29,723 nucleotides of DNA from IMG/VR virus record IMGVR_UViG_3300025151_000199, positions 1 through 29,723 of that record; one strand, 5' to 3'. The translations under genes were made by a program, and so were the position numbers. Positions 1 to 28,672 of this stretch are shown here, in pieces. The first letter of the stretch is position 1, and each line of letters opens with the position of its first letter. The notes beneath the pieces were generated by a model. That model was not told the origin of the DNA. It worked only from the letters and a program-made list of their open reading frames with translations, and did not search any database. Source of the stretch: a virus.

Positions 1-3000
1 CCCGCCATAGTCCATCGCTGTCTGCGTCTGCAAAAATTTTATCTCCTGGCATCTCCAGGCTGTCGTCCTTGGCCTTCCATATGCCATATCCTATGTTTGC
101 GTTGGCAACGTCCATAGAACTCACCCTTACGCTGACGAACTTGTATAGGATTCCATAACTGTCTGCCGTTGACCCGTCGAGTAGTCCAGGAATGAAACCT
201 AGGTTACCGTCAAAATCAAACACAACCGTCTTGTGGTCCGGTGTAGAACTTACTGTGAATACCTTATTGAGAGTATTTTCCTGGCTGTTCACAATAGCAA
301 ACTTATCAGGCAATGTTGTAGATGAACCTGCTGAAAGTCCATGTGAACCATCAAATATTATTTTCAACTGAGTAGAATTGTTAATTGATTCTAGACTGTC
401 AATGTTTACTCCTCCAAAAGTGAATCTAAAGACATCCCAGTCTAGATTTGATTTGTTGGCCACCCAGATCAAGTCACTTTGTGTGATGCTGTTTACATCT
501 AAATTTAGTAGATCCGACTCACTGAATAAAGTGTGTTGCACCTGTTCTACACGTGGGTAACCCGCTGTCTTGAACACCTGGGCGGAGTCTCTGCTGACTC
601 CTTGCTTAGTGTAATCTAACAGGTTGAAAGTTGTGGCCGCTGAATATTCCACTGGCTTTTTGTAAAAATCACTAACGTTGATTCGCAAACTCCTGTTGTA
701 TTCCAGATCGCTGTTTGAAGTGTCGTGTAATTCTATACTCTGCGGATTGGCAACCACTTTGTTGTCTTGCAAAGTGACCTGTACACTTTCCGTCAAATCT
801 GTGTTACCAAACGTGCCAGTCCTAATCATCCATTCTGGATACAAATCAAGGGCGATGTCTGAACCTTCGTACTTGGCCTTTGTAAGTCTATCTATGGCAT
901 TCTTTGTTCCTTTTTCTCTGATGTAACCTTGATAGAATTTGTACTGTGATATATCGTTAACGAAAAGGTTTTCTAAATAATCTCTGTTTTGGAAACCAAT
1001 CAATCTCTGTGCCGATTCCTGCTGTGACTCATCAAAATTGTTTGACTCAAGATTGTAGAAATCATTGAATTGTGAAATTTTGTAATCAAAGTTTGGAATC
1101 AACTGTGCGGCAGGTTTTTCCTGTTTGTACATCCAGTTGCTAAACTCGAAACTAGTGCCTGAACCATGATTGACCTTGGCCACGTAAAACTTACCTTGGT
1201 ACTCCACCGTGTCGCCAACTTTGTAATCAGTGTTTGCTGACCAATATGTTACCTGGGCAGAATCAAAAATAAATCCAGGAGCGTAGTAGTCCCCATTCCA
1301 GTTCCCGGTCTTCCATCCTACCAGTTTTAACCTTTGTTGTCTGAATCCTGTGAATGGTTCATAAATTATATCTGCGAACACTGTGCTGTTGTCAAATAGC
1401 AGTACGTGTTCTTTTTGAACTGTGGTCATTGATATGTTGTACAGACCGATGTCCGGTGACTTTAGATTAATGTCGAAAGTCTTTCCGATACGTTTAGTTG
1501 AAAGTTCACGCACATTTATTTTACGTCCACCAGCATCTAGTATGTTGTAATCACCTGCAATATTTTTCAGTTGTCCAACTATTGAATTGTTTGTATCAAG
1601 TTCTAGGCCATCTGCTCCCGGAGAAACAGTGATTGCTGAACCTGGTGCCCATTCCTGTGTTGTCCAGAATAAAAATTCTCTGACAGCGTTGTCCCAATTT
1701 AGAGTCTCTTTTAATTCTCGTGAGTACTTGTTGAATCTAAAACCTTGTGACTCTAACCAATTGCCATATCCAAAAAGGAAATCAGCAACTTCTTGTTTGG
1801 TATCAAACACGTAACCATAAGGGATAGTTTGAACAGTCTCTTGGAAATTTTTAAATTTTTCAACTTCCACGCCAGCGACATTTACCTTGCCACCAGATAT
1901 TCCTTTGAAAGGGTAATTGAATTTGAAGAATGGTTTGGCAGTTGAATATCCTAATATTTTAAAACCACCTGCCAGTGTGGACCCGTCTGGACCAACGTTC
2001 GTGTTCTTCTCGATCAACACGCCAGAATAATCAAAGCCGGCCACTGGATTTGAGGTCCTGAAAAGTATTTTATAGTTCTCATCTGGAATAAACTTAGAGC
2101 CAGAAGAAGATCCAGGTGACACTGAATCAGTCAATACCTTTAAATTATCCTTGTCAGAGAACCCTCCCAACTTGTAAGCCAGTTGCACTTGCAAGTTTTT
2201 CATTTTATCATAGTAGAACACTGTTGGATCTAAGTTCCTTGATGTAAGGTAATTCAATACAAATGGTTGATATCCTGCCGTTTGGTATCTTGTAGTGATG
2301 CCTGTCGTGTTATCAGTTTCAGTTTCTAAATGGTATTTCGCCGTGGCAAGTGTCATTCTTACACCAGTATCTTTGTATACTAAGTTGCCCGATAGATTCT
2401 TAGTCAATCTCGATGGGTCAAAGAAGTTTGTGAAAAACTGTGCAGGCCTTGTCAGTGCAAGTGTTTTGACCGCGGTGAACGGGTATGCTGAAGATCTCCT
2501 CCAAGCGGTCTCGGCCGGTGCTTGATCACCAAACTTCCAAGTGTTCATTCTTCCAGGTATGTCAAAACTGTCCACTAATCCTGTTGCTATTGGATCAAGT
2601 AGGTTTCCTGAAGCATCAACCGGAAGGTACGTTTTGATGTCTGGTTTGCCGTATCTGCCAGGTTCGGTAGCAATCGCTTCCCATAACACATCGTTGCCTG
2701 ACGTGTAAGGCGCCGTTCCGTAAGTGGCGTCCCAATCACTAGGCTTCTCAGAATGTCCCAGCATCTCCCATGGCCTTACATGTGGTGCATCGGTGTCGTA
2801 GAAATATTTGTAAATTCCTCTCCAATACCCTGGTAGTTTTTCTTGTAAAAGCCTGTCTGTGCTTCTTGAATAGTTGTATGTAAACGGTAGGCCGTCTGTG
2901 AAAACAGTGTTATTGATATACTGAACATTGTTTGCACCTGCCCATAGGTAAAAATCACTTCCCATGACATCGTTTATTTCCGTTCTTGTGTAATCTGTCG

Positions 3001-6000
3001 ATGTGAATGCTGACGGATCAACATCATGTATGTCTAATAATGTTGCATCATAAGTTGTCTTAAGATTGTTGTAAATTCTTTTTTCAAGTTCTAGGATAAG
3101 GTCATCACGCTCGTCACCAAACGTTTTAATTACTGATCCATCATGCTTACGAATGACCGCAGTGTCAGTTAGATATGTGTCGTCAGTAAATGTCTCTGGC
3201 TTAAATTTTGGATACATTCCTAATTTTGTAGGTGAAGGAGGCATATAACTGCCTGTAGTGTCTGGATAATCCTTGATCACTATCTTGTCTCCTTCTACTA
3301 ATGCCTTGCTTATTGTGACACTGTCATCTTCTGTGCTGAAGGTGTAGTCAGATCCTAGGATCAATTGCACATCGTTGTGATAGACGTAAACCGCACGGTT
3401 GCTCAAAGTCGTAATGTCATGCTGAGAATCTATAGCGTAATCTGTCTGAGAAGATCCTTGCACTGTGTATGATCTAGTAGACACGTTCTCGCCATGTCCA
3501 AGCATGTCCTCATAATAGAATGGAAATTTAGAAGTTCTGCCTTTGTTGATTGATAATATTATCTCATCAACTCTGTCGGCAACTACTCCTTCATAAGCCG
3601 TGCCCACTGCTTTAGTAAGGAAACTGTCATACCATTTTTGATATTCGCTGTTCACATAATCTATTGCTGTCATTAGGTTTGAATTTTGATCTACCAATCC
3701 AAAAATTGCAGGCATCAAAGATCCTTCATGCTGTAATATAGTTCCTCCTTTGAGTCTGGCATCTGGGTTGTCTCTAAGGTTACTGTTTCCGGGTATTACT
3801 CCTGTAAGGTCTTGATCTTTATCAAACATGTCTTTGACATGTCCTAATATTTGTCCAAAAGTAAATGTTCCAGATTGATCATTTGTAGCATTTATAGACA
3901 AGTTGTCTGCTATCTCGTAGATTCCTTTGCCGTCTACTTTGTCTGCCGAACTGTAACCTGCTATTCTTATCTGGTCATCTACTTTAAGTTCATCAACGAA
4001 TCTCACATATTTGTTAGTGGTTCCATCCACAAGTGTGTAGTCAGTGCCTAAGGTTTTTCTTATCCCGTTTACATTTACTGAAACCTTTAAATCTGACAAG
4101 TCTACTGAATTGGCAAAAAAATCAATGGGAAACAATCGTTTCTCTGTGTCTCCAACTATGTAGGTCCTTATTACCCTTTGCTCACTGTCATCTGTCCTTT
4201 CTATCCATGCACTTCGGTGATTGTCTGTTGATCTGCCTGTGGTGTAGTGTAAATGACCTGATGCTAAATTTTTTGTGATAGTTGAAGTACCAGACCTATA
4301 TGTGAATGTTCCTAATGTATGATCAGAATCAAATACCATGTCTCCAATGTTATTAATAGTGTTGTACTTGACTTTTATTCCAAGCACTGTATCTGTTGTT
4401 GCCGAGTCGCTTGTGGCATATGAAAAAACTTTTGCTCCTGTAAAATCTGAATTTGGGTAAACAGTTGTATCAGCAAACGATACATCGTTGTCATCAAACA
4501 TATTGAATAAAGGCTGTTGGTTAACTTTTGTCTTTTCTTGTGCTTTCTTGTATTCCTCTGTTGAACTATCATAGTAATAAGTGTTACCTTGATTGTTTGT
4601 ACCAAATTCTATGTATATGCTGTCATTTTCTGATGGCGTACCGTCAGAGGCTTCTGTTAGTGCTATAACCTGTGTGCTATCACCAGCAGTCACAAAATCC
4701 ACATCGTATACTTTGTTTTTGACCAAAGAGTCTGTGTCCGCCGTGAACACAACCCTCATTCCTGTTTCCAGAGTAACACCGTCTATTATGAAACCAGGCT
4801 GATTGATAACCGTACTAAAGACATCTGTTGTCACAGTATCTAAAAGTGTAACCGATTTCTTGGCAACAGTTCCGTGATTATATAATTGAACCCCGGAATC
4901 AAATTCTATGATAGGTCTTTTAGCACGATCCGTCTCATCTAGAACTGGTGTATAGCCGCTGAATTCCGCTGTCTGTTCAATCACTGACCTATGGAACCAT
5001 CTGTTGTACCTAGACCATGCATTCCTGTCAATGCTGTCCCTCTTTATTGTGATATAATCTGGCTTGTCAGGCAGATAGAATGCTTTGGCATACGGCCTTG
5101 AATCGTATCCAACAGTGTCATAAAGGATGGTTGTCTCTGTGGCATAACTGGCAGGAGTTATCAATTCATCTACATCTGTTAATGTAATAGATTCACCAAC
5201 TCCTTCAACGTAGTATTCTTTGTCTTTGTACCCCGCTGGTACTTTGTCATTTGTGAATTTGATTTTCATACCATTGGACAGGTTCAAAGTCCTAAGTGAA
5301 TAATTCCTTGCCCCTATGATATCATTGTCAGGATCAATCTGGTATGTGTCATCTACCGCTCTTATTTGTAGAATTCCGTATTGTGCATCGTGGTTACCAC
5401 ATTGATAGTAAAGTGTGTTAGGTGTTAGATCGTCATTAACGTATGTAGGCACAGTGAAAGTTACAGTGCCATAATCAGATCCATTGTTCGTCACTCCTGT
5501 TGAATATATTGTAGACGTGCTACCATCCGCCGCTATCTTGTTTTTGTAAGGCTCCGTCATTATCCAGAAAGGATGTCCTTTTGCATTTACTTTAAATTTG
5601 TATGTGTTACCTCTGTACAATGTCAGAATAGGGTTACGCTCGTTCTCTCTGTGTAGGAAGTTCCAAGCACGTTCAGAACTGCCATCCAATGGCCACGGTT
5701 CAACTTTATATTCTGCGACCGCTTGTGGACCTACTGAATCAATCTCTATGGCATTTGGACCTTGTGGCATCCAGTAGTATTCTCTGTAATTCACAAGTTT
5801 GTCATAGTCTATGGCTGGATTCCAAGCGTATGTTTTCTCTTTATTAAGTCTGTCATGATTGTTGACATTGCCGCCTAGATATTTTATTTGGTTAATGTAG
5901 TCATCATACGTTCCAGTAAATTTAACTTGGTCCTCTGGATTCACTGAAGTTGTGTCTTTGTCTGTGTAAGTGATCGCTGGCTCTAATTGATAAGCAAATC

Positions 6001-6250
6001 TATCGGCACTTGTTGCACCAATGTACCTGTCAGTGGCTATCCTTGTGGTTGCGTCTTGCTTACCTATGAAACCATCTAATCTTTCAAGAGATCCTTTTTG
6101 AACAAGTGGATCCAGTGTGCTAGATAAAAATCTATCATTGGTGTCAGTCCTGTAAAATGCAGGCAAGTGTTGGATCGTTCTTCGAATCTCAGTTTTGCCT
6201 TGCTTGACTACTTCGTTATTTGTAAGAGGACTTGTAGGTTTATCTGCCAT
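1..6250 (-). CDS. Giant virion structural protein, likely baseplate-associated (C-terminus outside window)
   Basis: The minus frame starts with ATG at 6250 (MADKPTSPL) and stays open to base 1, giving at least 2083 codons with no stop. The start overlaps the gp6 stop as TAATG, so the two are probably translationally coupled. The reading is rich in Asp, Thr, Tyr and Asn and in short beta-type repeats, as in phage appendage proteins. Around residues 215-292 there is a cupredoxin-like signature: GHPFWI with His226, then YYQCGNHDAQYG with Cys284, His287 and Gln290. The place after gp6 is where T4 has gp7 (1032 residues), and marine T4-like phages often carry very large structural proteins there. 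A gp7 or VrlC-like wedge/peripheral role is inferred from position only. At the window edge the chain reads FADADSDGLWR, a DxDxDG motif that could bind calcium. Confidence 0.85.
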   Translation of the reverse strand, partial: MADKPTSPLTNNEVVKQGKTEIRRTIQHLPAFYRTDTNDRFLSSTLDPLVQKGSLERLDGFIGKQDATTRIATDRYIGATSADRFAYQLEPAITYTDKDTTSVNPEDQVKFTGTYDDYINQIKYLGGNVNNHDRLNKEKTYAWNPAIDYDKLVNYREYYWMPQGPNAIEIDSVGPQAVAEYKVEPWPLDGSSERAWNFLHRENERNPILTLYRGNTYKFKVNAKGHPFWIMTEPYKNKIAADGSTSTIYSTGVTNNGSDYGTVTFTVPTYVNDDLTPNTLYYQCGNHDAQYGILQIRAVDDTYQIDPDNDIIGARNYSLRTLNLSNGMKIKFTNDKVPAGYKDKEYYVEGVGESITLTDVDELITPASYATETTILYDTVGYDSRPYAKAFYLPDKPDYITIKRDSIDRNAWSRYNRWFHRSVIEQTAEFSGYTPVLDETDRAKRPIIEFDSGVQLYNHGTVAKKSVTLLDTVTTDVFSTVINQPGFIIDGVTLETGMRVVFTADTDSLVKNKVYDVDFVTAGDSTQVIALTEASDGTPSENDSIYIEFGTNNQGNTYYYDSSTEEYKKAQEKTKVNQQPLFNMFDDNDVSFADTTVYPNSDFTGAKVFSYATSDSATTDTVLGIKVKYNTINNIGDMVFDSDHTLGTFTYRSGTSTITKNLASGHLHYTTGRSTDNHRSAWIERTDDSEQRVIRTYIVGDTEKRLFPIDFFANSVDLSDLKVSVNVNGIRKTLGTDYTLVDGTTNKYVRFVDELKVDDQIRIAGYSSADKVDGKGIYEIADNLSINATNDQSGTFTFGQILGHVKDMFDKDQDLTGVIPGNSNLRDNPDARLKGGTILQHEGSLMPAIFGLVDQNSNLMTAIDYVNSEYQKWYDSFLTKAVGTAYEGVVADRVDEIILSINKGRTSKFPFYYEDMLGHGENVSTRSYTVQGSSQTDYAIDSQHDITTLSNRAVYVYHNDVQLILGSDYTFSTEDDSVTISKALVEGDKIVIKDYPDTTGSYMPPSPTKLGMYPKFKPETFTDDTYLTDTAVIRKHDGSVIKTFGDERDDLILELEKRIYNNLKTTYDATLLDIHDVDPSAFTSTDYTRTEINDVMGSDFYLWAGANNVQYINNTVFTDGLPFTYNYSRSTDRLLQEKLPGYWRGIYKYFYDTDAPHVRPWEMLGHSEKPSDWDATYGTAPYTSGNDVLWEAIATEPGRYGKPDIKTYLPVDASGNLLDPIATGLVDSFDIPGRMNTWKFGDQAPAETAWRRSSAYPFTAVKTLALTRPAQFFTNFFDPSRLTKNLSGNLVYKDTGVRMTLATAKYHLETETDNTTGITTRYQTAGYQPFVLNYLTSRNLDPTVFYYDKMKNLQVQLAYKLGGFSDKDNLKVLTDSVSPGSSSGSKFIPDENYKILFRTSNPVAGFDYSGVLIEKNTNVGPDGSTLAGGFKILGYSTAKPFFKFNYPFKGISGGKVNVAGVEVEKFKNFQETVQTIPYGYVFDTKQEVADFLFGYGNWLESQGFRFNKYSRELKETLNWDNAVREFLFWTTQEWAPGSAITVSPGADGLELDTNNSIVGQLKNIAGDYNILDAGGRKINVRELSTKRIGKTFDINLKSPDIGLYNISMTTVQKEHVLLFDNSTVFADIIYEPFTGFRQQRLKLVGWKTGNWNGDYYAPGFIFDSAQVTYWSANTDYKVGDTVEYQGKFYVAKVNHGSGTSFEFSNWMYKQEKPAAQLIPNFDYKISQFNDFYNLESNNFDESQQESAQRLIGFQNRDYLENLFVNDISQYKFYQGYIREKGTKNAIDRLTKAKYEGSDIALDLYPEWMIRTGTFGNTDLTESVQVTLQDNKVVANPQSIELHDTSNSDLEYNRSLRINVSDFYKKPVEYSAATTFNLLDYTKQGVSRDSAQVFKTAGYPRVEQVQHTLFSESDLLNLDVNSITQSDLIWVANKSNLDWDVFRFTFGGVNIDSLESINNSTQLKIIFDGSHGLSAGSSTTLPDKFAIVNSQENTLNKVFTVSSTPDHKTVVFDFDGNLGFIPGLLDGSTADSYGILYKFVSVRVSSMDVANANIGYGIWKAKDDSLEMPGDKIFADADSDGLWR

Positions 6251-15622: not shown

Positions 15623-16606
15623 ATGAAGAGAGTAAAGTACCTAAACAACCGAGATCTATTGGCCCAGATACACGCCAGCAAGAACACCTATTGTTCGTAT
15701 GTGACGCCAGAGGACGCACAGTATGACCTCATAGTACCCAACCTCAAGAAGATCAACGTGCGGACCATATCTGATGCAAAGAAGGCAAAGGCCAAGAGGC
15801 TGACACAGGAGGCGTGGGAGCAGGCCAAAGCGGCGGGCATCAAGAAAATAAAATTAGTTGACTACACAGTGTCTCCAAAAAAAATTGAAAAGACAGACCT
15901 TGTGTTCAGGGTTATGACTTTTGATCACATACCCATGGACAGCGAAAGAAAGAGAAATCCAAAACAGACTGCGGATCACCATTCGAAAGTGAACTTCCCT
16001 CCGTTCCAGCACTACAAGATAGACAAGAAGGGCAACCTGAAATGCGTGGGCAAGAGCCACTGGGTGGGCGGAATGAGTAACGGAAACTTCTCAGTGGATC
16101 ACGGAAAAATGACCAACCAACTGGCGATGATGTACATGAAGTTGTGTGAACGTTATGGAACGAGAGCAAACTGGAGAGGTTACACATACAACGACGAGAT
16201 GCAGTCACAGGCTCTAATGCAGTTGAGTCAAATTGGGTTACAGTTTGATGAATCAAAATCAGACAACCCATTCGCTTACTACACAGCGGCGATAACAAAC
16301 AGTTTCACAAGGATACTGAACATTGAAAAGAAAAACCAATCAATCAGAGATGACCTTTTAGAATTCAACGGAATGATGCCGAGTTTCACAAGGCAGAACG
16401 AGAATGATACCAGCACACCGTCATACAAGAAAAAAATGAAGACTGTGCATGGTGATGTACACGAGGTCAATAAAACCACGTTAGCAAAACTTAACAAAAC
16501 TTTGAAAAAGAAAGGCAAACTGGACGCGGAAGATTTTGATGGCATAAAATTCAAGAATAAGATAGACATGACAAACCACAAACCAATAGTAAAGAAGAAA
16601 TGGTAA
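15623..16606 (+). CDS. gp55: RNA polymerase sigma factor for late transcription, gp55-type, with N-terminal extension
   Basis: The protein replaces the host sigma factor so that RNA polymerase reads TATAAATA late promoters. The sigma core is at about residues 155-245: DHGKMTNQLAMMYMKLCERY, then ANWRGYTYNDEMQSQALMQL and SDNPFAYYTAAITNSFTRIL, followed by EKKNQSIRDD. These align with T4 gp55 (NWR-Y-Y-DEM and NPFAYFT). T4 gp55 is 185 residues; this protein is 327, with about 145 residues ahead of the core and about 75 lysine-rich residues behind it. The start is supported by AAAGG nine bases upstream. It heads a plus-strand run with gp47 three bases downstream. The C-terminus ends KKKW; I do not see an obvious clamp-binding peptide like that of T4. 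Confidence 0.87.
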   Translation: MKRVKYLNNRDLLAQIHASKNTYCSYVTPEDAQYDLIVPNLKKINVRTISDAKKAKAKRLTQEAWEQAKAAGIKKIKLVDYTVSPKKIEKTDLVFRVMTFDHIPMDSERKRNPKQTADHHSKVNFPPFQHYKIDKKGNLKCVGKSHWVGGMSNGNFSVDHGKMTNQLAMMYMKLCERYGTRANWRGYTYNDEMQSQALMQLSQIGLQFDESKSDNPFAYYTAAITNSFTRILNIEKKNQSIRDDLLEFNGMMPSFTRQNENDTSTPSYKKKMKTVHGDVHEVNKTTLAKLNKTLKKKGKLDAEDFDGIKFKNKIDMTNHKPIVKKKW

Positions 16607-25388: not shown

Positions 25389-25610
25389 TTAGAAGAAAGG
25401 TTGACCGCTTTTCTTGGTAGTTTCCAGGTTGTCTTTTACCAGTTGTGCAATGATCTCACGCTCCGTTGGACTCAGCGCCATGGCCTCAGAATATGAAAGT
25501 CCGCCCCTCATGTACCAACTGATCTTTACCAGCTCGTGCTTCAGGGACTTCTGGCCACTCTCCATGTCCTTCAATGTCTTGATGATGTCAGATTCCGTTT
25601 GTGAAAGCAA
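25389..25610 (-). CDS. gp51-like small hub-assembly protein / C-terminal part of a gp26 frameshift product
   Basis: A 73-codon frame in the -1 frame relative to gp26. As a separate gene it would start with TTG at 25610 two bases after the gp26 stop, with no Shine-Dalgarno. The frame remains open upstream through the poly-T end of gp26, where AAATTTT offers a -1 slip. The sequence (SWYMRGGLSYSEAMALSPTE, then REIIAQLVKDNLETTKKSG, ending QPFF) looks like small proteins encoded next to gp26 in marine T4-like phages and annotated gp51, and functionally like the T part of G/GT tail chaperones. I favour expression by frameshift. Confidence 0.7.
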   Translation of the reverse strand: MLSQTESDIIKTLKDMESGQKSLKHELVKISWYMRGGLSYSEAMALSPTEREIIAQLVKDNLETTKKSGQPFF

Positions 25611-25612
25611 GG

Positions 25613-26467
25613 TTATACGAAAAAATTTGATGTGTCGAAAGTTACGGGTACCTCGTATGTTGCCGGTGCACCCTTCTTGATCTGGTCTTCGGTGGCCTTC
25701 AGTTTAAGCGGCTTCACTGCACCCTGTCCACGCACCTTCTGGAGATTGTCTTCTATCTCCTTGATAAGAGTTGCGTTTGCGTTTTCCACAAATTCCTTTA
25801 TGTGCGTCGGGTCTGTGATCTCTGTGCCATCGGGCATTGTGATCTTCTCAATGTTTTTTAGAAGTATACTGGCATTGAGATCAGTCAGTGTCTTGAATGC
25901 TTCGTTGAATCTTGTTGCTTTTTCTTCATCTGAAAGTTGTGAGTCTTGGATTGCGCCATACATCTTCTGTTGTTGAAAAGTTTTCAATGAAGTCGTTGTC
26001 ATGTCCTTGTAGGTCAACGGTCGAATCGCAATCTTCAATCCGTCCTTTAGGAAGATATCGCTGTCTACTTTTGTCCCTCGCAACTCATCCAATATTGCAG
26101 GTAAATTTATTGAGTGTGAAACTTGTTCCTTTGCACCCGGCACGGTAAAATTTATGTCCATGGTCTCACCATATGTTGCTATCCTAATTGCAACCAGGAT
26201 GGTGTCTAGATCATAACTTCTGATTTGCCATGCGTCCTTTATATCAGGCACACAACTCTGAATGACGTCAACTACACCTTGTCCGTTCATTAATGCATCA
26301 GGTGTTTTGAACCTGATCTCATCCTTGGCAGTCATGGGCATCACACCCAGTTCACCGGTTTGCGATGGTGTTACCACGTGCGGAGGATATGCACCACCCG
26401 AAGGCAACGACACGTATATGCTTGGTTGTCTAAAATACTTGTTTAGTGGGTTTGTGTTTTCCGTCAT
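25613..26467 (-). CDS. gp26: Baseplate hub protein gp26-like (tail assembly)
   Basis: A 284-residue protein resembling the T4_baseplate (gp26) family of marine T4-like phages: FRQPSIYVSLPSGGAYPPHV, then ELGVMPMTAKDEIRFKTPDA, LMNGQGVVDVIQSCVPDIKD and LDTILVAIRIATYGETMDI. T4 gp26 is 208 residues. Its gene is preceded by a TATAAATA box 44 bases upstream on the minus strand. It ends SNFFV across a poly-T run that contains the slippery heptamer A AAT TTT. It is divergent from the tape measure gene, which its product may help assemble if it acts as a chaperone. Confidence 0.85.
   Translation of the reverse strand: MTENTNPLNKYFRQPSIYVSLPSGGAYPPHVVTPSQTGELGVMPMTAKDEIRFKTPDALMNGQGVVDVIQSCVPDIKDAWQIRSYDLDTILVAIRIATYGETMDINFTVPGAKEQVSHSINLPAILDELRGTKVDSDIFLKDGLKIAIRPLTYKDMTTTSLKTFQQQKMYGAIQDSQLSDEEKATRFNEAFKTLTDLNASILLKNIEKITMPDGTEITDPTHIKEFVENANATLIKEIEDNLQKVRGQGAVKPLKLKATEDQIKKGAPATYEVPVTFDTSNFFV
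25622..25628 (-). promoter_or_regulatory. Candidate -1 ribosomal frameshift site (AAATTTT)
   Basis: In the gp26 frame the minus strand reads TCA AAT TTT TTC GTA TAA, so A AAT TTT fits the X XXY YYZ rule. After a -1 slip the ribosome reads TTT CGT ATA ACC and enters the 73-codon downstream frame, giving a fusion of about 359 residues. The site lies three codons before the gp26 stop. Confidence 0.6.
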
Positions 26468-26477
26468 TTTTTTATTC

Positions 26478-26485
26478 TATAAATA
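26478..26485 (+). promoter_or_regulatory. T4-type late promoter for the tape measure gene
   Basis: A perfect TATAAATA on the plus strand, 63 bases before the ATG at 26549. Start expected near 26491 by analogy with T4. It faces a second TATAAATA on the other strand. Confidence 0.75.
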
Positions 26486-26510
26486 TACACTAAAAGCGTA
26501 TAGATGTCTA

Positions 26511-26518
26511 TATTTATA
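26511..26518 (-). promoter_or_regulatory. T4-type late promoter for gp26
   Basis: A perfect TATAAATA on the minus strand, 44 bases before the gp26 ATG at 26467. Start expected near 26505. The two boxes point toward each other, so the 5' ends of both transcripts would overlap by roughly 15 bases. Confidence 0.75.
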
Positions 26519-26548
26519 TGCGTATAAAAAGGTAAAAATTAAAGTCGT

Positions 26549-28672
26549 ATGGCAACATTAGAGCAGATTATCAAGGATCTACAGGAAATAGCAGACAGCG
26601 GTGGCGTAGGTGGTAATTCGGCGGCCAGGAGGAAAGCGGCCGAGGAATCCAAGAAAGCACTAGAGAATGCCAAGAAACAAAACAAGTTAGACAACGATCT
26701 AAACAAGAAAAAGATCGAAGAACTAAGGATCGCCCAAAAACTTGTTAAAGCAGATACCGAAACCTACAAATTAATCGAAAAAGAGATCAAGCAGACAGAA
26801 TCACAGATCAAACAAAATGAGAAAATACTTGAGGTCAGTAAAAAACTGGGAGACAGTTTTGTTGGAATAGGTAAAGCGGCATTTGAAGGACAAGGTTCAA
26901 TCAGTGCTTTCACTGATAACGTAAGAGGTCTCGGACTTCTAGGAAACAGGCTCGATGTAAACATTGAAACATTTAGACAACTTTCACAAACAGGTGCAAA
27001 CTTTGGACAGTCGATAGTCGAACTAAGAAATGCGGCGGCCAACGCGGCATTACCACTAGATGATTTTGCATCATTGGTTGCTAGTAATTCACAGAACCTG
27101 GCGGCACTGTTTGGTTCGACAACACAAGGAGCCCAAAGGATAGCGGAACTTGGACGTATCACAAGAGAAGTTGGTATAGATAGACTGGCACCATTAGGAT
27201 TCACAGTTGAAGAAATAAACGAAACACTATTATTAAATTTAGATGCACAAAGAAGGACAGGTGTTCTTAACCAATTGACAGATTCACAAAGAATCAACAG
27301 TGCAATAGCATTTGCCGAAGAGTTGGACAGGTTAGCAAAATTAACAGGACAACAAAGAGATGAATTAAGGGCGGCAATCGAATCTCAAAAAGCAAACGAA
27401 AGATTCCAAGCGGCACTGCAAGGACAAACAGAAGAAACTAGAAGAAGATTGCAAGGATTTGCGGCCACAGTTGAAGGGATATCTCCTCAATTAGCAGAAG
27501 GATTTCAAGACCTTATAGCCAACGCAGGTGTTCCAGTAACTGAATCAGCACTGGCTCTTGTACAAAACATTCCAGGGGCAAGAGATGTAGTCAATGATTT
27601 GATTTCAGGAGTTGTGTCAAGCGAACAAGCACTTATCAACATAAGGGATCTGTCTGCAGGTAGTATTGACAGATTTAGACAGGCAACCGTTACAGGACAA
27701 GTTGAATTTTTACAACTACAAGGAGGAATAATCGAACTTGGTAGAAGAGTTACAGATGCCGGCTCTGTGCTAGACGAACAGAATAAATCCGCAACTAGTC
27801 TTGTGCAGAACCTAACAACATTTGAACAGGCGACCAAAGTTCTCGCAAGCCAATTCCAACAGATTGAAACCGGACTCCTAAGAGCATTTGGACCAGCACT
27901 GGGAGGATTCGTAGGTGGCATTCAAACAGCATTCGGAAAAGGTGGCTCAATTGCGGTTGCACTCGGTGCCGCACCTGGATTGACAGCAGGATTGATAGTG
28001 GCAGGACTGGCAGGAAAATATCTATTCACAGAAGCAAAGGAAATTGCAATAATTGCCGCTGGTACGGCCTTGGGCCAAAAAGGAATGGTTACACAACTAG
28101 GTGGCATCAGAGGTGTCCTTGGCAAAGGTTTAGGTTTTGCAGGAAAGGGTCTAGGAGTTTTGGGCGGAGGAGCCGCGGTAATCGGTGGTGCCACTCAGGC
28201 AAGTACCGCAGAGACAACAGGAGGCAAAGCACTGGGCGTAGGGTCTAGTATACTAGGTGGTGCTTTGGCAGGTGCAAGTTTAGGGAAGATATTTGGATTG
28301 CCTGGATTGGCTGTAGGAGCAGGTATTGGTGGCCTCGTTGGATTGGCGGGACTAATGATGAACGACAATAAGAGAGCATTTGGCGGGCCGATGAATGCGG
28401 GAGAAACTTATCTAGTTGGCGAAAATGGACCTGAGATTGTTACCTCTGGAACCTCAAGCACCGTCACTGCAAACAAAGATCTCAAAGACACATTTGACAC
28501 AGAGGCATTGGAAACAAAGATGTCCAGCATGATCACAGAACTGAACAGTGCAAATAAGACTTTAACGAATATGGTAAATGGCGTAAATACGCTTGTTGCA
28601 GTCGAAAGCAGGGCCTTGAAAGCAGTTGAGAAAACAGCACGTAAAGATGTCAATCAAATAGGTATTGTTTAG
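26549..28672 (+). CDS. Tail tape measure protein
   Basis: A 707-residue protein with tape-measure layout. Residues ~20-110 are a charged coiled coil. Residues ~110-465 are mostly helical (LRNAAANAALPLDDFASLVA, then TGQQRDELRAAIESQKANER). Residues ~465-600 are glycine/alanine-rich hydrophobic segments (VALGAAPGLTAGLIVAGLAG, then SSILGGALAGASLGKIFGLP). Residues 612-631 (GGPMNAGETYLVGENGPEIV) are the G-GE-YLVGE-GPE motif common near tape measure C-termini. T4 gp29 is 590 residues, so the tail may be somewhat longer, at about 1.5 angstrom per residue. It follows its own late promoter and precedes the portal by 35 bases. Confidence 0.85.
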   Translation: MATLEQIIKDLQEIADSGGVGGNSAARRKAAEESKKALENAKKQNKLDNDLNKKKIEELRIAQKLVKADTETYKLIEKEIKQTESQIKQNEKILEVSKKLGDSFVGIGKAAFEGQGSISAFTDNVRGLGLLGNRLDVNIETFRQLSQTGANFGQSIVELRNAAANAALPLDDFASLVASNSQNLAALFGSTTQGAQRIAELGRITREVGIDRLAPLGFTVEEINETLLLNLDAQRRTGVLNQLTDSQRINSAIAFAEELDRLAKLTGQQRDELRAAIESQKANERFQAALQGQTEETRRRLQGFAATVEGISPQLAEGFQDLIANAGVPVTESALALVQNIPGARDVVNDLISGVVSSEQALINIRDLSAGSIDRFRQATVTGQVEFLQLQGGIIELGRRVTDAGSVLDEQNKSATSLVQNLTTFEQATKVLASQFQQIETGLLRAFGPALGGFVGGIQTAFGKGGSIAVALGAAPGLTAGLIVAGLAGKYLFTEAKEIAIIAAGTALGQKGMVTQLGGIRGVLGKGLGFAGKGLGVLGGGAAVIGGATQASTAETTGGKALGVGSSILGGALAGASLGKIFGLPGLAVGAGIGGLVGLAGLMMNDNKRAFGGPMNAGETYLVGENGPEIVTSGTSSTVTANKDLKDTFDTEALETKMSSMITELNSANKTLTNMVNGVNTLVAVESRALKAVEKTARKDVNQIGIV

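Follow-up and report, generated by a model that had tools for sequence, protein, structure and literature searches.

In phage lambda, where slippage on GGGAAAG underlies the gpG/gpGT pair of tail-assembly chaperones, the chaperone genes point in the same direction as the tape measure gene. The corresponding proteins of T4-like phages, gp26 and gp51, were already recast as tail-assembly chaperones in 2022 by Vladimirov, Gautam and Davidson (Virology 566:9-15), and the assignment is thus not new. Two other papers describe that study: PMC10885494 relates that, in place of frameshifting, a short gene and a fused long gene are present in some T4-like phages, and PMC12846349 credits it with the slippery polyT sequences of T4-like TAC-N genes, so that a frameshifted chaperone of this kind is, on these accounts, already known. 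T4 itself has two paralogous genes of the PF12322 family, one for a short form and the other for a long form that carries a C-terminal domain, and no frameshift; its gp51 is required for assembly and absent from the virion (PMC3004832). The chaperones of another phage group, the Vandenendeviridae/Andersonviridae (phage Adele; PMC12846349), have a conserved T-run slip site (GTTTTT), and their -1 frame is open in every case.

We analysed a 29.7-kb virus record (29,723 nucleotides in all, hereafter the window) with T4-like structural and late genes, in which the PF12322 family and the combination of a short form with a long, C-terminally extended form recur, but in which a single gene with T_TTT_TTC takes the place of the two T4 paralogues. 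The probable tape measure gene is divergent here, whereas it is co-directional in lambda and lies downstream of the chaperone gene in the Adele-type phages, and the marine clade to which the window belongs differs from the T4-like system at large both in this divergence and in a second heptamer, A_AAT_TTT, that is frozen as well. At this locus we establish sequence, frame, conservation, homology and synteny, and what we add to earlier work is very strong conservation of the arrangement in the marine lineage and in jumbo phages. Judged from sequence, gp26 and the ORF in the -1 frame very probably form one gene that would encode a short and a long tail-assembly chaperone by -1 frameshifting. The features are as follows.

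25613-26467, minus strand: gp26-like predicted short chaperone form (TAC-N or 'G'), PF12322, 284 aa
25619-25628, minus strand: slippery decamer AAATTTTTTC, A_AAT_TTT (25628-25622) overlapping T_TTT_TTC (25625-25619)
25613-25615, minus strand: 0-frame TAA stop, one sense codon past the slippery heptamer
25389-25625, minus strand: predicted C-terminal domain in the -1 frame (TAC-C or 'T'), with 76 residues beyond FF and then the stop
26549-28672, plus strand: probable tape measure protein of 707 aa, encoded by the divergent neighbour (phrog_5062, 2.2e-5; phrog_1538, 1.7e-4)
26511-26518, minus strand: TATAAATA, -10 element of a T4-type late promoter for gp26, in 42/54 marine homologues
26478-26485, plus strand: TATAAATA, -10 element of a T4-type late promoter for the tape measure gene, in 49/54 marine homologues

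The gp26 ORF matches PF12322 (E 1.2e-13; 51.8 bits, above the curated cut-off of 24.5 bits) and phrog_150 (E 2.4e-17). It ends in ...FDTSNFFV*, the final codons being TCA AAT TTT TTC GTA TAA, and the two heptamers, A_AAT_TTT and T_TTT_TTC (TTTTTTC, 25625-25619), overlap at its 3' end; across the main genes of the window (~9,200 codons), TTTTTTC occurs in frame just twice, this site included. The small ORF (25389-25610, minus strand; 73 aa) begins with TTG and lies in the -1 frame relative to gp26, and this frame is open for 88 nt upstream and 224 nt downstream of the gp26 stop. A -1 shift gives a 359-residue product, and the fusion is identical whether the slip is placed on A_AAT_TTT or on T_TTT_TTC. 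The original prediction had placed this gp26 ending here, followed by a TTG-initiated 73-codon ORF exactly in the -1 frame and open through the site, with a fusion of about 359 residues, and each of these points was confirmed. For the window's phage, the predicted tryptic peptides are GAPATYEVPVTFDTSNFFV, from the C-terminus of the short form, and, from the fusion, GAPATYEVPVTFDTSNFFR and next to it ITLLSQTESDIIK.

Scanning IMG/VR gave 78 loci encoding gp26 relatives, and relatives were also present in a further 62 phage records. The marine set comprises 71 sequences with the junction, the window included, of which 58 are distinct; CAAATTTTTTC is invariant throughout (58/58 distinct, 71/71 in all) and is followed in all 71 by one sense codon, the 0-frame stop and the same -1 ORF. 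At a protein identity of about 29-34%, all 12 jumbo T4-like phages (PA5oct, Phosso, Vibrio 2.275.O, XbC2, BF, CBB, GAP32, Atu_ph07, Munch, PBECO4, XaC1 and Kaldavass) have TTTTTTC once in frame, together with a -1 ORF that spans 70-77 codons. The bases preceding their T-run are variable and the 0-frame stop shifts from 1 to 11 codons past the site while the slippery site stays put; since these surroundings vary and TTTTTTC does not, T_TTT_TTC is the fixed element. A_AAT_TTT, which had been predicted as the slippery heptamer, is present in the window and frozen in the marine clade, but outside this clade and a few relatives only T_TTT_TTC is kept. We therefore rejected A_AAT_TTT, which is not universal among homologues, as the main slip site, and the conservation proposed as a check on the prediction holds for the -1 frame and for TTTTTTC but not for that heptamer.

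Selection at the junction is apparent at the level of codons. When 51 complete, distinct marine sequences were aligned by codon, 54 columns of gp26 combined an invariant residue with a degenerate codon, and only three of these (3/54) were codon-invariant, namely AAT, TTT and TTC of the slippery site (the chance that three random columns would be exactly the slippery codons is 1/24,804); elsewhere in gp26, third positions differ in about 53-64% of pairs. The -1 ORF shows coding-type substitution from its first codons (0.26/0.15/0.44 at positions 1/2/3) and a mean column identity of 77%, compared to 69% for gp26, and the T-domain residues R, L, L and S directly past the slip are invariant, such that protein-level constraint on the -1 frame begins right after the slip site. 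No conserved 3' stimulatory RNA structure was detected by RNAalifold (mean single-sequence z +0.3), and neither a conserved 3' stem-loop nor any other frameshift stimulator was found. A TCT codon located 10 codons past the slippery site (about 25590-25595, minus strand), which forms TCTGA, is also codon-invariant in the marine clade, and no RNA structure was found at this position.

We considered whether the small ORF could be a separate gene, translated through termination coupling at the stop of gp26 or through reinitiation there. An ATG overlaps or closely follows the stop in Phosso, Atu_ph07, PBECO4 and P-SSM2, and annotators call distinct genes in those relatives, but PA5oct lacks ATG, GTG and TTG in its whole -1 ORF (73 codons), 13 of the 58 distinct marine sequences have none of them within the first 12 codons, and the start positions that do occur wander among marine sequences without being conserved. 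As the residues straight past the slip are conserved and as separate translation leaves the codon invariance of AAT TTT TTC unexplained, we regard a separate gene as very unlikely. The original prediction had also pointed to the missing Shine-Dalgarno sequence, which is correct for the small ORF (a Shine-Dalgarno-like sequence precedes 0/102 candidate small-ORF starts in homologues) but of little weight, because the sequence upstream of the gp26 start is only A-rich and offers no obvious one either; we dropped this argument.

Slippage of RNA polymerase on the T6 run would instead generate mixed mRNAs, so that the fusion would arise in transcription and not on the ribosome. That the conserved element is a homopolymer, extended to 8 T in HTVC008M and 7 T in phiM12, fits this explanation; however, with respect to the 0 frame the run sits precisely as T_TTT_TTN, the adjoining A_AAT is frozen as well in the marine clade, and known relatives of the tail-assembly chaperone gene class use ribosomal slippage. 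Six Ts are also short for slippage by bacterial RNA polymerase, and we consider this explanation less likely still than a separate gene. Nothing beyond the metagenomic origin of the record speaks for a chance overlap, a pseudogene or a sequencing error, and this explanation has next to no probability: the frame break and the site (T_TTT_TTC with a -1 ORF) recur in over 80 other sequences, drawn both from isolate genomes and from assembled metagenomes, and the conservation in isolate genomes refutes this reading.

PF12322 is found once each in P-SSM2, S-PM2, HTVC008M, KVP40, phiW-14, Vi01, phiM12 and RM378, and twice in T4. TTTTTTC (P-SSM2, S-PM2, KVP40 and phiW-14) or TTTTTTT (HTVC008M and phiM12) occupies the same place in six of these phages, in each of which the -1 frame encodes the T domain, and the annotations of P-SSM2 and S-PM2 list the small ORF as a separate gp51. 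Neither Salmonella phage Vi01 nor Rhodothermus phage RM378 has a standard -1 signal. In Vi01, where a match to phrog_634 is weak, a short -1 ORF lies past the PF12322 gene, whose end (GAA ATT TTC ATT TAA) contains no canonical heptamer; the RM378 gene ends TCC TTT TTT TGG AAT AAG TTA TGA and the T-like ORF is in the +1 (or -2) frame, possibly reflecting a different frameshift type.

In T4, the site is broken (TTC TTT) in gp26 (208 aa; PF12322, 8.8e-64), and gp51 (249 aa; PF12322, 3.9e-52), encoded divergently from gp26, bears a C-terminal extension. On its sequence, T4 gp51 is a gp26 paralogue with a fused C-terminal extension, and only this extension resembles the small ORF: the two align over a motif S/T..E..M.P.ER, although profile comparison is weak, hhalign against the T4-like/cyanophage T domain assigning the marine set a probability of 23% (weak) and the jumbo set one of 82%. 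T4, the textbook phage, would then be the exception in encoding its short and long forms by separate genes, and gp51, long puzzling as a hub assembly protein, would acquire a testable role. The same reading would correct a recurrent mis-annotation in marine, cyanophage and jumbo T4-like genomes, in which a gp26 'baseplate hub' gene and a small hypothetical or 'gp51' ORF would be one frameshifted chaperone gene.

The assignment as a G/GT-type (TAC-N/TAC-NC) pair is supported by the conservation of site and frame, the start-less small ORF in a relative and the protein-level constraint on the -1 frame, as well as by the same arrangement in six named T4-like phages, the T4 paralogue pair and the tape-measure-like neighbour. 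The recasting of gp26/gp51 in the original prediction thus finds support, except that the small ORF does not correspond to the whole of T4 gp51 and that the idea dates from 2022. Most ribosomes would stop at TAA and yield the short form (TAC-N, 284 aa), while a minority would slip back one base on T_TTT_TTC, with Phe tRNAs presumably re-pairing on TTT TTT, and in the marine clade possibly also on the overlapping A_AAT_TTT; having bypassed the stop, these ribosomes would produce the long form (TAC-NC, 359 aa) by adding a helical domain of ~76 residues. On the model of lambda gpG/gpGT, both forms would coat and fold the divergently encoded tape measure protein before the tube polymerises. We infer the slip itself, the ratio of short to long form and the chaperone function from these features. 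The wider proposal, that the compact signal AAATTTTTTC frozen in the marine clade acts without RNA structure and that frameshifting is ancestral in the gp26 family, T4 having abandoned it when a duplication gave rise to gp26 and gp51, is in our judgement evenly poised. With its start-less small ORF and frozen codons, the family provides a clean comparative set for frameshifting without an obvious RNA stimulator.

Structure predictions were made for gp26 and the T domain as two separate parts, with a pLDDT of 86 for gp26 and of 77 for the all-helical T domain. A Foldseek search of BFVD with the gp26 model recovered predicted models of the Arthrobacter phage Molivia 'tail assembly chaperone' (E 0.027, prob 1.00), ranking below many T4-like baseplate hub proteins. 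The PDB yielded no trustworthy fold match to gp26 and no solved chaperone, a PDB sequence search with the gp26 profile retrieved one chance match only, and the T-domain model had no structural match in BFVD.

The divergent neighbour that adjoins gp26, in place of a downstream gene, is probably the tape measure protein, as originally predicted: besides its own PHROG matches, 8/20 homologues match the tape measure family phrog_167 (best 5.6e-14), its C-terminal region contains a YLVGENGPEIV motif, and a large divergent ORF occupies its place in most relatives. The window also encodes a T4-type late sigma factor (15623-16606), and the bidirectional TATAAATA elements would link the expression of chaperone and tape measure protein. 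In the intergenic region (26468-26548), TATAAATA is present on both strands, and both sides are kept in 42/54 marine homologues. At the other end of the window, positions 2-6250 (minus strand) encode a protein of at least 2083 aa, perhaps an adhesin or a tail fibre, that contains a carbohydrate-binding module (CBM_5_12).
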